A model generated the notes under the pieces. It did no database searches and was not told the DNA's origin. It saw only the letters and a program-made list of their open reading frames with translations. From contig JAISLK010000037.1 in NCBI GenBank assembly GCA_031290935.1, positions 62,001 to 126,000 on the forward strand: a DNA stretch of 64,000 bases. The letters are read 5' to 3'. The stretch comes from Prevotellaceae bacterium (lineage in GTDB: Bacteria; Bacteroidota; Bacteroidia; Bacteroidales; UBA932). Shown here piece by piece: positions 409-58,500 of the stretch (positions are counted from its first letter, which is position 1; each line of letters opens with the position of its first letter). The translations under genes were made by a program, and so were the position numbers.

Positions 409-459
409 AAGCTGTCATTTTGTCAAAAAAACCGGACATTCCTGCTTCATTTGTTAAAA
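409..459 (+). repeat. 51-bp conserved flank (leader-like) of 21-bp array 1; inverted copy at 17856-17906
   Basis: aagctgtcattttgtcaaaaaaaccggacattcctgcttcatttgttaaaa; reverse complement of 17856-17906 differs at one base by eye. Confidence 0.9.
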
Positions 460-684
460 TTTTGACTTCATTTGTTAAAAGTTCAACTTCATTTGTTAAA
501 ATTTTAACAAATGAAGTTGAAAGTTGGACTTCTTTTGTTAAAAGTTGAGCTTCTTTTGTTAAAATTTTAACAAAAGAAGTTAAAAGTTGGACTTCCGAAG
601 TTGAAAGTTGGACTTCCGAAGTTAAAAGTTGAGCTTCCGAAGTCAAAAGTTGAGCTTCCGAAGTCAAAAGTTGGGCTTCCGAAC
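445..684. repeat. Intergenic tandem array 1, 11 units of 21 bp plus a partial unit
   Basis: Units begin CTTC at 445, 466, 487, 529, 550, 592, 613, 634, 655, 676 (units at 508 and 571 are the palindromic counterparts); contains perfect 30-bp palindromes at 487-516 and 550-579. Confidence 0.93.
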
Positions 685-795
685 TGCTATGTCGCCGGTA
701 TCCGGACGCCGCCGGCAAAATGCCGGACGTGCGTAAAAGAAAACGCCGGCAAATTTCCCTGCCGGCGTTGCATCCATAGATAAATAACCTGTCGT

Positions 796-3700
796 TTATG
801 CTTTTTCCGCTTTCTTTTTCATGCGTTCGTAGTCGCTCATAGAGGCGACGACCAGCTTGTCGAGGTACCGCATGCCGGTGCCGGCAGGTATGAGGTGGCC
901 GCAGATAACGTTTTCTTTCAACCCCTCCAGCGCGTCCTCTTTGCCATGAATAGCGGCGTCGCCCAGCACCTTTGTGGTTTCCTGGAACGAAGCAGCCGAC
1001 ATGAAACTGGTTGTACGCAATGCCGCGCGGGTAATCCCCTGGAGTATCTGGTTGGAAGTAGCGGGCAACGCATCGCGCGCTTCCACCAGTTTCAAATCCC
1101 TGCGTTTAAGCATCGAATTTTCGTCGCGCAATTTGCGTGCGGTAATCATTTGCCCGGCTTTCACGGTCGTCGAATCGCCGGGGTCCTGCACCACTTTTTT
1201 GTCGTACAGCGAATCGTTTTCAAACATGAAATCCCATTTGTCCACCAGCTGTTCGGCGAGGAAGCGGGTATCCCCCGGCTCCACAATTTCTACCTTGCGC
1301 ATCATCTGGCGCACGATGACCTCAAAGTGCTTGTCGTTAATTTTTACCCCCTGCAGGCGGTAAACTTCCTGAATTTCGTTTACAATATATTCCTGTACAC
1401 GCGTAGGCCCCTGTATGTTCAAAATGTCGAGCGGCGTAATGGCGCCGTCGGACAAAGGCGTTCCGGCGCGTACGTAGTCGTTTTCCTGTACCAGGATTTG
1501 CTTCGACAAAGGCACTAAATATTTTTTTTCTTCGCCCAGTTTCGAGCGTACAATAATTTCGCGGTTGCCGCGTTTAATTTTGCCCATGATTACTTCGCCG
1601 TCAATTTCGGAAACAACCGCGGGATTTGACGGGTTGCGGGCTTCAAACAGTTCGGTAACGCGCGGCAAACCGCCGGTGATGTCGCCCGATTTACCAACCG
1701 CCCGCGGGATTTTCACCAGGATATCGCCCGTATTCGCTTTGTCGCCTTCATTCACCATGATGTGGGCGCCCACCGGCAAGTTGTACTGTTTAATTTCATT
1801 GCCTTTGGCATCCAAAATACGCACCGTCGGGTTCCGGGATTTGTCGCGCGATTCGATAATCACTTTTTCGCGGTAGCCGGTCGTCTCGTCCGTTTCTTCG
1901 CGGAACGTAATGCCTTCCACCACGCTGTCGAAGGTGATTTTCCCGGCCAGTTCCGAAATAATAACGGCATTGTAGGGGTCCCATTCGCAAATCAAATCGC
2001 CTTTTTTCACGTTCGCGCCATTCTTCATATACAGCTGTGCGCCGTAAGGAATGCTGTGGTGATAAAGCGCGATGTCCGTATTTTTATCGACAATGCGCAT
2101 TTCCGCCAACCGTCCGATAACAATATCTACTTTCGTCCCGTCGCCGGAAACTTTATTTACCACGCGCAATTCTTCAATTTCCAGTTTGCCGTCGTAGCGA
2201 GCAATCACTTTGTTGTCGGAGGCAATACTCGATGCCGTACCGCCGACGTGGAAAGTACGCAGCGTCAACTGTGTTCCCGGCTCGCCGATAGACTGTGCGG
2301 CAATCACGCCGACGGCTTCTCCGCGTTCCACCATGCGCCCGGTAGCCAGGTTGCGCCCGTAACATTTGGAGCAAATACCTTTTTTCGAATCGCAGGTCAA
2401 TGCCGAGCGGATTTCCACCTGTTCAATCGGGGAGTCTTCGATGATTTGTGCGAGGTCTTCGGTGATTTCTTCTCCTGCCGCCACAATCAAGGCGCCGGTC
2501 AACGGGTGGGTAACATCATGTACGGAGGTGCGCCCCAGGATACGGTCATAAAGCGATTCTACCACTTCGTCGTTGTTCTTGATAGCCGAAGCCACCAGGC
2601 CGCGCAATGTACCGCAATCATCTTCGTGGATGATGACGTCTTGCGATACATCTACCAGACGGCGGGTAAGGTAACCGGCGTCGGCGGTTTTCAGCGCCGT
2701 ATCGGCTAACCCTTTTCGCGCGCCGTGTGTAGAAATAAAGTATTCCAGCACCGACAGTCCTTCTTTAAAGTTGGACAAAATCGGGTTTTCGATAATTTCC
2801 GCGCTTGTAGCGCCGGATTTTTGCGGTTTTGCCATTAAACCGCGCATGCCGGTCAACTGGCGAATTTGTTCCTTCGAGCCGCGGGCGCCGGAATCCAACA
2901 TCATGTACACAGAGTTGAAGCCGCCTTTGTCGCTCGACAACTGTTTCATCACTGTTTGCGTAAGTTTGGCGTTGGTGTGCGTCCAAATATCAATAATCTG
3001 GTTGTAGCGTTCGTTGTTTGTAATGAAGCCCATGTTGTAGTTGTTCACCACTTCTTCTACGGCCGCATAGCCTTCGTCTACCAGTTGTTCTTTTTCTTTC
3101 GGCACAATCACATCATTCAAATTGAATGACAAACCGCCGCGGAATGCCATCTGGTAACCGAGGTTCTTAATATCATCCAGAAACTTGGAAGTAACCGCCA
3201 CGCCAGCTATTTTCAACACCTTCCCGATAATATCGCGCAATGATTTTTTGGTTAATACTTCGTTGATATACCCGGCTTCTTTCGGCACCACCTGGTTAAA
3301 CAGTACGCGCCCGACGGTGGTATCTATCATTTCGCTTTTGTAAGTATTATCGGGCTGCCAAAGGTTCACGCGCACTTTAATCATTGCGTGCAAATCCACT
3401 GCTCGCTCGTTGTAGGCAATCGATACTTCTTTGGGGCCGTAAAATACGGTCCCCTCCCCTTTCGCGCCTTTCAAGGCTTTGGTAATATAGTACAGCCCCA
3501 ACACCATGTCTTGCGAGGGCACCGTAATAGGGGCGCCGTTCGCGGGATTCAGGATGTTGTGCGAGCCAAGCATCAATAACTGCGCTTCCAAAATGGCGGC
3601 ATTGCCCAGCGGCAAGTGAACGGCCATTTGGTCGCCGTCGAAGTCGGCATTGAAAGCCGTACACGACAAGGGGTGCAACTGGATAGCTTTACCTTCTATC

Positions 3701-5058
3701 AACTTCGGCTGGAAAGCCTGGATACCCAGGCGGTGCAACGTAGGCGCACGGTTCAACAATACGGGGTGCCCTTTCATCGCATTTTCCAGGATATCCCATA
3801 TTACGGCGTCTTTGCGGTCAACAATTTTTTTCGCCGATTTAACGGTTTTTACAATACCGCGTTCTATCAATTTACGAATGACAAACGGCTTGTAAAGCTC
3901 GGCTGCCATGTCTTTCGGCAAACCGCATTCGTGCATTTTCAATTCCGGGCCTACCACAATTACCGAACGCGCCGAATAGTCCACACGTTTACCGAGCAAA
4001 TTCTGGCGGAAACGCCCCTGCTTGCCTTTCAAGCTATCGGAAAGCGATTTTAACGCGCGGTTTGAATCGGTTTTCACCGCATTTGATTTGCGCGAGTTGT
4101 CAAACAGCGAATCCACCGCTTCCTGCAACATGCGTTTCTCATTGCGTAAAATTACTTCGGGCGCTTTGATTTCAATCAAGCGTTTCAATCGGTTGTTGCG
4201 AATAATCACGCGGCGGTACAAATCATTCAGGTCGGATGTGGCAAAACGGCCGCCGTCCAACGGCACCAATGGGCGCAAGTCCGGCGGAATAACCGGGATT
4301 ACTTTCATAATCATCCATTCGGGCTTGTTGATATGCTTCGATTCGCGGAAGGCTTCTACTACGCTCAGGCGTTTCAAGGCTTCTTCCTTGCGCTGTTGCG
4401 ATGTTTCATTATCGGCTTTGTGACGCAGGTCATACGACAGGACGTCCAAGTCAATCCGCATAAGCATTTTCAATAATATCTCAGCGCCCATGCCGGCAAT
4501 GAATTTATTGGGGTCATCATCGTCGAGCAATTGATTTTCTTTGGGCAAGGAGTCCATGATATGGAGGTATTCTTCTTCCGACAGGTAATCGTTTGCTTTC
4601 ACGCCGTCTTTTGCTGCAACGCCCGGCTGCACTACGATGTAACGTTCGTAATATACGATAGCTTCCAATTTTTTCGCAGGGATGCCTAACAAATACCCTA
4701 TTTTATTGGGCGTCGAACGGAAATACCAAATATGGGCTACCGGAACCGTAAGCGTAATATGCCCCATACGTTCGCGGCGCACCTTTTTCTCGGTAACTTC
4801 TACTCCGCAACGGTCGCAAACGATTCCGCGATAACGGATGCGTTTGTATTTTCCGCAATGGCATTCGTAGTCTTTCGACGGCCCGAATATACGTTCGCAA
4901 AATAACCCGTCGCGTTCCGGTTTATAAGTGCGGTAATTAATGGTTTCGGGTTTCAGCACCTCGCCGCTGGAATATTCCAGCACTTCTTCGGGCGAAGCCA
5001 ATCCGATAGTAATTTTAGTGAAGTTACTTTTTTGCTTATTCTCTTTTTTCAGCGCCAT
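796..5058 (-). CDS. rpoC: DNA-directed RNA polymerase subunit beta'
   Basis: 1420 aa; [15 protein letters not shown] catalytic motif, zinc-binding [23 protein letters not shown]. Confidence 0.98.
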
Positions 5059-17435: not shown

Positions 17436-17630
17436 GATAAAATGTAACAGGGTTACTTTATAAAAAAAACAATAATGTAATTGCACCGGATTTAAAAATC
17501 CGGGCACAAAAGTACAAAAAAATTCCGGTAATACGGCAGCGCGAAGCAAAAATTTACCGCTTACCTCCGGGAACGGGCGCAAACAGGCCCAAATAACAGC
17601 TTCTCGCCACCGGTAAAAGGCAACCTCCCC

Positions 17631-17861
17631 GTTCGGAAGCTCGACTTTGGACTTCGGAAGCCCAACTTTGGACTTCGGAAGCTCGACTTTGGACTTCCGA
17701 AGCTCGACTTTGGACTTCCGAAGCTCGACTTTGGACTTCCGAAGCTCGACTTTGGACTTCCGAAGCTCGACTTTGGACTTCGGAAGCTCGACTTTGGACT
17801 TCGGAAGCTCAACTTTGGACTTCGGAAGTTCAACTTTGGACTTCCGAAGTCCAACTTTTAA
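17631..17861. repeat. Intergenic tandem array 2, 11 units of 21 bp
   Basis: cttc(g/c)gaagctcgactttgga x11 in exact register; reverse complement closely matches array 1 units. Confidence 0.95.
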
Positions 17862-17906
17862 CAAATGAAGCAGGAATGTCCGGTTTTTTTGACAAAATGG
17901 CAGCTT
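17856..17906 (-). repeat. 51-bp conserved flank of array 2, inverted copy of 409-459
   Basis: ttttaacaaatgaagcaggaatgtccggtttttttgacaaaatggcagctt. Confidence 0.9.
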
Positions 17907-39904: not shown

Positions 39905-39996
39905 AGTTGAGAGTTGAAAGTTGAAAGTTGAAAGTTGAAAGTTAACTGGCGCCAGCTAATTTTCAACTTTCAACTTTCAACTCTCAACTCTCAACT
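39905..39996. repeat. Long inverted repeat of 7-bp units centred on CTGGCGCCAG
   Basis: agttgagagttgaaagttgaaagttgaaag... / ...ctttcaactttcaactctcaactctcaact flanking aactggcgccagct. Confidence 0.9.
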
Positions 39997-41867: not shown

Positions 41868-42080
41868 TAGCGAAAAAAAATAATGGTGCAAAAATACTAT
41901 TTTTTCCGGGAAGGGAAAGGGTCGAAGGGGCAAGGGGGATGCCGCGCCGGGGATGTACCGGCGGCGAACCTTCCCGGGAGGACATTTTTGAGGTTTTATT
42001 TATCGCCGGGGCGTGGTGTAAAACGCCCCGCGGGCGTCGTTGCACAGGCTTTTTTAATGGATTTGATACTTCCGGCAGGG

Positions 42081-42320
42081 TTGCAACAGCTGTTGCAAGT
42101 CCGTTGCATTTTTGCGACAGGGTTGCAACAAGTGTTGCAAGTCCGTCGCACTTTTGCGACAGGGTTGCAACAAGTGTTGCAAGTCCGTTGCACTTTTGCG
42201 ACAGGGTTGCAACAGTTGTTGCAAGTTCGTCACACTTTTACGACAGGGTTGCAACAGTTGTTGCAAGTCCGTCGCATTTTTGCGACAGGGTTGCAACAGT
42301 TGTTGCAACCCTGTCGCAAA
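42081..42320. repeat. Intergenic tandem array 3, 5 units of 42 bp (2 x 21) plus a terminal inverted partial unit
   Basis: ttgcaacagttgttgcaagtccgtcgcatttttgcgacaggg; units start 42081, 42123, 42165, 42207, 42249; terminal 42-bp near-perfect palindrome at 42279-42320. Confidence 0.95.
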
Positions 42321-55156: not shown

Positions 55157-55362
55157 TGCCGAAAAGCTGCATAACTTTTCCCAAAAACTGCATGGTAATC
55201 GCCGAAAACTGCATGGTATTTGCCAAAAGCTGCATGGTAATTGCCAAAAACTGCATGGTAATCGCCAAAAACTGCATGGTAATTGCCAAAAACTGCATAG
55301 TAATCGCCAAAAACTGCATGGTAATCGCCAAATACTGCATGGTATTTGCCGAAAACCATACC
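55157..55362. repeat. Intergenic tandem array 4, about 9 units of 21 bp plus a partial unit
   Basis: (c/t)gccaaaaactgcatggtaat repeated in register from 55179; units at 55200, 55221, 55242, 55263, 55284, 55305, 55326. Confidence 0.95.
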
Positions 55363-55500: not shown

Positions 55501-58500
55501 ATGAAATTAAACAAAATCAAGAGAACGGGACACAGGCTTTTACGAAAAACCTGCCTTCTCGCAGGCGTATGCTTGCTGACGATGTTGGGCTTTACTCCCG
55601 TAAATGCGCAACAGCAAAGTAAAACCATCATTGGCACGGTGGTGGACAAAAGCGGGGAACCGATGGTAGGCGCCGCCGTTGTCGTGAAAGGAACGACAAA
55701 GGCTGTGGCTACCGACGTGGACGGGAAATTTTCCCTCTCCGTGTCTGAAGGAGATGTGTTGACGGTATCGTTTATCGGTTACACCACCAAGAACGTTACG
55801 GTAAGCGCGGCAAACACTTTAACCGTTACGCTCGAAGAAAACGCACAGATGCTGGACGAAATTGAAATCACGGCAGAGTTCGGTATGAAGCGCGTCGCGC
55901 GGTCTATCGGGTCGTCCGTGCAAAACGTGAAAGCCGCGGACATTATTGAATCTGGGCGCGACAATTTCATTTCCGCCTTGCAGGGGCGCGTAGCGGGGAT
56001 GAACGTTATTTCCAGCGGCGGTGCGCCGGGCGCTTCCAACACTGTTATCCTGCGAAGCCTGACTTCTATTTCAGGGAACAACCAACCGCTCTATGTTGTA
56101 GACGGTATCCCGATGAATAACTCGTCATTCAGCGCATCATCAGGATTTGCCAGAGCCGACGTTTATTCATCCCGCTACCTTGACTTTTCGTCGCGTGGCG
56201 ATGACTTCAACCCGGAAGACATCGAATCCATGACTATCTTGAAAGGCGCAGCTGCCGCCGCCCTCTACGGGTCTAACGCATCGAACGGCGCAATTATCAT
56301 CACTACAAAAAAAGGTGCGCCCGGAAAAGGAAAAGTATCCTATAGCAACTCTTTCCGCTGGGATTCGGCGTATGGCTATCCCGAATTACAGGATAAATAT
56401 GCCAACGGCGGCTACGGGGCTACCAGTTATTATAATCTTAGCCGGTTTGGCGGCCTTTATCCCGAAGGCACTACACTATATGATAATGTGGCGGCCATCT
56501 TGCAAACAGGATTTACGAGCAAACACAACATCGCCGTAGAAGCCGGAACAGCCAGTACAACCATCCGCGCCGCCGCTTCCTTCCTTGACCAAACAGGGGT
56601 AGTTAAAACAACGGATTATGGCCGCACCAGTATTTCCTTATCCGGTAAGTCGGAAATTACTAAATGGCTAAAAATGGAAGCATCCATGCAATATGCCTCT
56701 ACCACTAATACGAAAGTGCAAAAAGGATCCAGTGGGCCACTGCGTTGGGCGATGCGCTGGCCCATGGTGGACGACATGTCGAATTATCTGGCTCCCGACG
56801 GCATGCACATGCGTTATCCGGAACGGTATGTGGATACAGACTTATATAATCCAATATTCGGCATGAACAAAAATAAATTTTACGACGAATCCGACCGTAT
56901 TATAGCCAATGCCGTAGTGATTGTTACCCCTACGAAAAATACTTTCCTCCGCGCACAGGCAGGCTGGGACGTAGGCGCACAAACGTTCGAAACATCGGAA
57001 CACCCCTATTTTACCACTAATAACTATAACGTGCTTCCCGGAAACGGCGGCGTATATAACTTGTCGAAATCAAATTTTTCAGACCCCGCAATGAATATTC
57101 TTGCCGGTTATAACGACAGTTTCTTCCAGGACAAATTGACCGTTTCGGCGCAGGTAGGATACCACCAGCTAGAAAACGGCGTTACCCGCTTATCTACCTA
57201 CGGAACTAAATTTGCTGTCGTGGATTTGCAATCTATCAATAACTGCGACCCTACAACTGTTTCTTCAAAGAAAAGGGCTTCCAAACGCAGGATACAGGCT
57301 ATTTCGGCGCAGGCGGAAGTCGGGTGGAATAATATGGCCTTCCTGACTTTCCGTGCCCGTAACGACTGGTCTTCTACACTGCCGAAAGACAATAATTCTT
57401 ATTTCTATCCGGCGTTGGAAGGCGCTTTTGTGGCTACCGAATTGCCGTTCCTGAAAGAAAACAAATATGTAACCTACCTGAAACTGCGCGGCGCAATAGC
57501 GCAGGTTGGTAAAGACGCCGGCCCGCTCGAAATCAATCCCGAACTGGAGCCGACGCAACAATCGGGCGGCGGTTATAGATATGGATGGACAGGGCCGAAC
57601 CTGGACTTGCGCCCGGAAATGACCACCTCCTGGGAAGCCGGATTTGAAGGACGGTTCTTTAATGACCGGGTCGTAGCGGATTTTACCTATTTTAATACGC
57701 GTTGTGAAGACCAGATAGTAAAAGAATTCCGTATGAGTTATGCTGGCGGGTTTGTATTAAACACCCAAAATATGGGTACCTTTGAAACCTGGGGATGGGA
57801 AGCGCATATTGACGGCGATATTTTCAACACCAACGGCTTCCGTTGGAATATCGGCCTAAACCTTTCGCACACCGGTTCGGAAGTAATAAGTATGCCCGTA
57901 CCGGAATATTATGACGCTTATACCAACGGCAACACTGCCGGTATTCGTAACGGCGTAATGGTCGGCTACCCGGTAACTACCGTAACGGGAACTGACTTTC
58001 AACGCAACGACAAAGGAGAGGTGCTGATAGATCCGAGCACCGGCATACCGCTCGTTTCCTCCGAATGGACAATGCTTGCCGACCGGGAACCCAAAGTCCG
58101 TTTAGGTTTTAATACGGTTCTTTCCTATAAAGGCTTCCGGTTATCGGCTATGTTTGCCGGAAAGTTAGGAGCAAATGTAGTAAATGGTACTAAACGGGAA
58201 ATGATGTCCAGTGGGTTGAGTTGGGAATCGGTAGATTTCCGCGAACGCGGTCCGGTAGTATTTAATGGCGTATTGAAAGACGGTAATGAAAACAGCGACC
58301 ACCCGACGCCTAATATCTTGTCGGTAACGTATGGCGATTATAGCGCATCCATTTATGCCGGAGCAGCAGCAAACTGGATAGAAAAAAATGTACACTACAT
58401 CCGGTTGCAGGAACTCCGCTTTTCCTATACGATTCCTACGAACTACTTGAAAAAATTCCTTAATGGATTCGTCAGTTATGCCAGCGTTTTCGTTTGCGGG

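Follow-up and report, generated by a model that had tools for sequence, protein, structure and literature searches.

A 21-bp palindromic array between convergent kdsC-like and rpoC genes of a Prevotellaceae bacterium: a candidate copy of a small dispersed intergenic element

Introduction

In a 64,000-nucleotide stretch of DNA from a Prevotellaceae bacterium, hereafter the window (G000:C37:62001-126000), the gap between a kdsC-like gene and rpoC holds a run of palindromic 21-bp units, and the question arises of what such an array is and how it came to lie there. The window belongs to a 1.64-Mb assembly (G000) that is 63% complete. The nearest named relatives of its rpoC are found in Bacteroidales MAGs designated 'Prevotellaceae bacterium' (95% and 94% identity), which, judged by bin names, we take to be termite-gut bins. 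The array, termed here array 1, is described below together with its copies, its relationship to a broader class of arrays in the genus and the explanations that have been considered for it.

Results

Register, palindromes and coding potential of array 1

Array 1 (Table 1) consists of 11 full contiguous units (445-675) and a 9-bp remnant, CTTCCGAAC, at 676-684, with zero indels. Its self-match equals 0.78 at lag 21, 0.72 at lag 42 and 0.77 at lag 63, compared with at most 0.43 at any lag from 10 to 59 in 2000 dinucleotide shuffles, which bears out the strict 21-bp register of the original prediction. The unit can be parsed as three heptads (CTTCCGA AGTTAAA AGTTGAG), but a simple heptamer array was rejected as the identity of array 1, the lag-7 self-match being only 0.38. 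Both of the perfect palindromes reported previously are present, and the first, at 487-516, actually reaches 40 bp. The idea that these 30-mers represent a 9-bp palindrome expanded by 21 bp is arithmetically sound (9 + 21 = 30), but the direction of change does not follow, because they can equally be read as an AT-rich unit succeeded by an inverted copy of that unit. The flanking genes are convergent, as had been stated, with the kdsC-like HAD phosphatase gene on the plus strand stopping at 375 and rpoC on the minus strand occupying 796-5058.

Table 1. Coordinates of the features of the two elements in the window
Feature	Position	Strand	Description
Leader of element 1	412-444	+	CTGTCATTTTGTCAAAAAAACCGGACATTCCTG, 33 bp
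Array 1	445-684	+	11 units of 21 bp and a 9-bp remnant
Perfect 40-bp palindrome	482-521	.	Contains the 487-516 palindrome
Perfect 30-bp palindrome	550-579	.	One compensated A:T to T:A pair relative to 487-516
Intrinsic-terminator-like hairpin for rpoC	742-769	-	Separate from the element
Tail of element 2	17568-17631	-	92% identity over 64 bp to the tail at G000:C47:16707-16770
Array 2	17631-17870	-	11 units of 21 bp and a 9-bp remnant
Leader of element 2	17871-17903	-	Same family as the leader of element 1

A minus-strand frame (398-718, 106 aa, TTG start) is open across array 1, and the remaining five frames contain stops. A translated 7-residue repeat, such as SEAQLLT, would account for one frame staying open for 106 codons, but a fixed register of 21 bp, a multiple of 3, readily permits one open frame of six, the only start codon is TTG, and the frame cannot be held by the 23-bp arrays of the same class described below. 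Translation is hardly credible, and the earlier reading of the array as non-coding stands. Arrays of this kind create false ORFs and break short-read assemblies.

Array 1 within a dispersed leader-array-tail element

The 33-mer that precedes array 1, CATTTTGTCAAAAAAACCGGACATTCCTGCTTC, has three mismatch-free matches in the 1.64-Mb assembly, each of which opens an array: element 1, element 2 (17867-17899 on the minus strand of the window) and C47:16418. The opening 14 bases of the leader, CTGYCATTTTGWCA, match four times, once per element, the fourth copy being a diverged one (C47:31278-31456) that shares these 14 bases. Element 2 spans 17568-17903, and the two further copies reside on another contig (C47). 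A tail of about 64 bp is common to element 2 and the C47 16-kb copy only, array 1 and the C47 31-kb copy being devoid of it. In three copies, AT-rich units (CTTCATTTGTTAAAA) lie nearest the leader, and the distal units have the form CTTCSGAAG. The pattern searches covered the whole G000 assembly, the element ends being defined by two to four copies, and a unit search with up to 2 mismatches revealed no further loci in it.

The genomic contexts of the copies, for which several gene names were read from translations, are diverse: convergent kdsC/rpoC for element 1, divergent speA/clpB for element 2 and, on C47, co-directional gaps between gldG-like and yqgF-like genes and between a hypothetical gene and a DNA methyltransferase gene. 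All four copies lie outside genes once the ORFs made by the arrays themselves are set aside. Judging from these sequence comparisons, array 1 belongs to a small dispersed element that is restricted to the species and has at least four copies; the original view of an array sited between convergent genes holds with respect to the location, but not as a one-off feature.

Comparison of the aligned copies by eye disclosed no terminal inverted repeats at the element ends. In the assembly, which lacks about 37% of the genome, the left-end 14-mer occurs only at the four elements and in no insertion sequence, and no transposase with ends matching the element is visible in this 63%-complete assembly. 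The motif GAGAAGCTG is found at both ends of copy 2, the right-hand one being part of the conserved tail, and sister species offer no empty site because their gene order differs; a target-site duplication was considered for this copy and dropped.

A consensus scan yielded three weak sigma-70-like matches within 300-900 and no TAnnTTTG box within 400-800. A sigma-54 or stress promoter in the leader was considered because, in relatives, CTGYCATTTTGWCA is also found upstream of dnaK, lon and clpB-like genes. This interpretation was rejected for three reasons: inspection of the leader by eye gave no correctly spaced -24/-12 pair, the 14 matches of the motif in relatives are little above the 10 obtained with a reversed-pattern control, and a separate TAnnTTTG box is present at -38 of clpB. 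The sites in relatives by the starts of dnaK, clpB-like and lon genes (L101, L107 and L112, about position 1501) are accompanied by sequences that by eye look like sigma-54 -24/-12 elements and might represent a stress-gene operator of Bacteroidales. An Rfam search detected only tRNAs.

A genus-wide class of arrays with unrelated sequences

Pattern searches that covered 59 and 40 relatives gave no match to the unit pair or to the leader, and no copies of the element were found among GTDB contigs, viral contigs, plasmids and phages. Array 1 is missing from the kdsC, speA and clpB loci of those sister species that have these genes. The sequence of array 1 is thus absent from all of these relatives, but arrays of its class are abundant in the genus. 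In G005 and G008, a different 23-bp array is located upstream of clpB, and in G001 and G003, different 21-bp arrays are located on the other side of speA. The position upstream of clpB, with different 23-bp arrays in the two sister species (L240 and L241), is possibly a recurrent array site. Array positions may recur while the sequences change, although this pattern was noticed post hoc.

Tandem Repeats Finder was applied to 453 kb of G000, 300 kb of G003, 120 kb of G001 and 131 kb of G006. Peaks were obtained at periods 7/14 (not in G006) and 21/42/63, with an additional peak at 23 in G000, and above 14, the commonest periods genus-wide are multiples of 21. The density of the 21-multiple arrays per 10 kb equals 0.64 in G000, 1.37 in G003, 1.34 in G001 and 0.38 in G006. 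Five of the seven outgroup samples, which represent other genera or families and are small (64-100 kb each), have no such arrays; in the other two, where gene context comes from a crude ORF picker, the length-filtered arrays overlap ORFs, with the exception of one 84-bp array of 2.2 copies. Several of the contigs end inside arrays. In particular, L118 and L144 both start within 14-bp arrays (1-118); the common end point, exactly 118 bp, resembles an assembler k-mer limit, so that the true arrays are probably longer.

The unit sequence differs between arrays, and the families present at two or more loci share flanks as well. A 23-bp family (L013:8287 and L016:17826) has the same unit and both flanks in common, and a further 21-bp family (L119/L126) shares one flank. 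Five 42-bp arrays of G003 (L136, L141, L143, L146 and L147) keep one half-unit, GCTCTCTCGCACCGTGCGGG and its variants; the other half is of the same length and comes in four different sequences, three of which are clearly palindromic.

The window contains other arrays. The one at 42076-42308 (42-bp unit, 5.5 copies), each unit of which holds the two hairpins GTTGCAACAGTTGTTGCAA and TCGCACTTTTGCGA, is another family of the class, with a unit that is partly shared by L121 and L123 arrays. The 21-bp array at 55181-55356, CCAAAAACTGCATGGTAATCG, is not palindromic (0.48) and lies upstream of a 1051-aa ORF at 55501. At 39905-39996, in the gap of convergent triosephosphate isomerase and Mur-ligase-type genes, a heptamer array AGTTGAA is opposed to its inverted copy TTTCAAC, centred on CTGGCGCCAG, and may form a large bidirectional hairpin.

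Constraint on the palindromes

Palindromicity was assessed in 69 non-heptad arrays with periods of 21-23 or 41/42, 8 of which overlap ORFs of a crude caller, among them array 2, where the repeats themselves give rise to the ORF. Over the whole set, the palindromic fraction reaches 0.645, as against 0.513 when columns are shuffled and the best axis is chosen anew, and variability between units is 0.044 in paired and 0.093 in unpaired columns, a difference that does not exceed 0.014 in shuffles (Wilcoxon p about 1e-5). Compensated double changes per changed cell amount to 0.089 at the dyad axis and 0.032 at control axes, most of them coming from a few arrays and, because units duplicate, not being independent events; an example from G008 is the change of GTTCAAATccAATTTGAAC to GTTCGATTccGATTCGAAC. 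Strong folding is predicted for both strands: the fold z-scores of array 1 are -7.6 and -6.5 for RNA and -6.3 for DNA, and that of array 2 RNA is -8.7. In array 2 (p 0.005) and in the C47 16-kb copy (p 0.035), adjacent units resemble each other more than they do once the order of units is shuffled; for array 1, p is 0.08.

The similarity of adjacent units, as well as the plentiful simple heptamer and octamer arrays of the same genomes, would suit a neutral slippage minisatellite free of structural constraint, with palindromes arising by chance or template-switch repair. Such an origin is distinctly unlikely, given that palindromicity and arm conservation exceed the column shuffles and that the shared leader and tail would be left unexplained. 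Somewhat better placed, though unlikely too, is an array of palindromic dimer sites bound at a two-turn spacing by a cooperative nucleoid or regulatory protein: at 10.5 bp per turn, a period of 21 makes two turns, 42 and 63 are its multiples, and the arms are better conserved than the remaining columns. However, a single sequence-reading protein cannot serve dozens of arrays with unrelated palindromes, the 23-bp class of the same genome does not correspond to an integral number of turns, and the arrays show no clear orientation bias relative to genes.

The convergent position of array 1 and its strong predicted RNA hairpins might also suggest a transcription terminator or mRNA 3'-end stabiliser for kdsC and rpoC. 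This function is unsupported and very unlikely, because rpoC owns a terminator-like hairpin and the density of arrays is the same in divergent and convergent gaps (7.8 per 10 kb in both); furthermore, there is no terminator-like site inside array 1, and copy 2 lies between the divergent speA and clpB.

Discussion

The explanation preferred here, with a probability of about 0.55, takes array 1 for the minisatellite core of a small intergenic element that is dispersed and non-autonomous, a family of hairpin cassettes that grow by local duplication. The element comprises the fixed leader and a series of 21-bp units, to which two of the four copies add the tail. Shared flanks show that complete elements have been copied into several intergenic sites in this species, presumably by a copying enzyme, and the likeness of neighbouring units suggests that local tandem duplication, probably via slippage or unequal recombination, makes the array grow or shrink in each copy. 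The arms would stay complementary and yield consecutive hairpins, roughly one for every two turns of DNA, which, in line with the predicted folds and arm conservation, may form in the cell in single-stranded DNA, in RNA or as cruciforms. The element would then be one family of a genus-wide class of arrays of unrelated sequence, in which hairpin geometry rather than one binding sequence is likely to be the kept feature and whose members may persist mainly as hairpin cassettes of a mobile or selfish kind, affecting transcripts or supercoiling locally as a side effect. Against this explanation count the small number of copies, four in a 63%-complete assembly, the missing tail of array 1 and of the C47 31-kb copy, and the fact that no terminal inverted repeats, target-site duplications or matching transposase were recognised there. 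Template-switch (quasipalindrome) correction could keep the arms complementary without selection for function. A more far-reaching proposal, according to which the genus keeps dozens of intergenic arrays per genome with a conserved unit length (21 bp, or 42/63) and hairpin but a sequence open to change or exchange, is doubtful; if true, it would point to a system in which shape, rather than sequence, guides the making or recognition of hairpin arrays.

Among known systems, array 1 resembles CRISPR in having a leader that is followed by regular repeats, but the repeats are contiguous and no unique spacers are present, in agreement with the prediction that it is not CRISPR. With REP/REPIN sequences, linked to RAYT (Y1) transposases, the element has in common that small palindromes are dispersed between genes; it differs in the long strict tandem arrays and in families without shared sequence. 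RAYT-driven spread was rejected, the Y1 transposase (PF01797) being absent from the incomplete G000 assembly and present in only two of nine species of the genus. The TAACTGA heptamer direct repeats of Beggiatoaceae, Cyanobacteria and Bacteroidetes (PMC4679880) are likewise intergenic and tandem and occur in Bacteroidetes; the unit of array 1 is formally three heptads, and the window has a true heptamer array at 39905-39996. Unlike these repeats, array 1 has a palindromic 21-bp unit and is not located immediately upstream of start codons.

The closest architecture is that of BrickBuilt, a MITE of Porphyromonas gingivalis in which a leader, a spacer-free array of 23-bp units and a tail are found at many loci, the leader and tail reaching 285 and 318 nt and carrying IS5-like terminal inverted repeats (PMC4596501); a literature search for 21-bp palindromic minisatellites in such bacteria returned nothing closer. 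Both elements belong to Bacteroidales, are intergenic and species-restricted, combine leader, array and tail with imperfect units, spacer-free and of 20-24 bp (21 here), include partial copies without leader or tail (here, the leader is found at three to four loci and the tail at two) and are predicted to form long stem-loops, and by this analogy, the element would be built and work like BrickBuilt. It differs in the 21-bp unit, in the shorter leader and tail and in the coexistence of many unrelated array families in one genome; it is not filed as a MITE because IS-like terminal inverted repeats were looked for and not found. The single BrickBuilt case would thereby be broadened to an entire genus with many coexisting but unrelated families of two-turn palindromic minisatellites, with a statistical sign that it is the hairpin that persists and not the sequence, and the spread and maintenance of bacterial intergenic palindromes would become testable on many independent sequences together.
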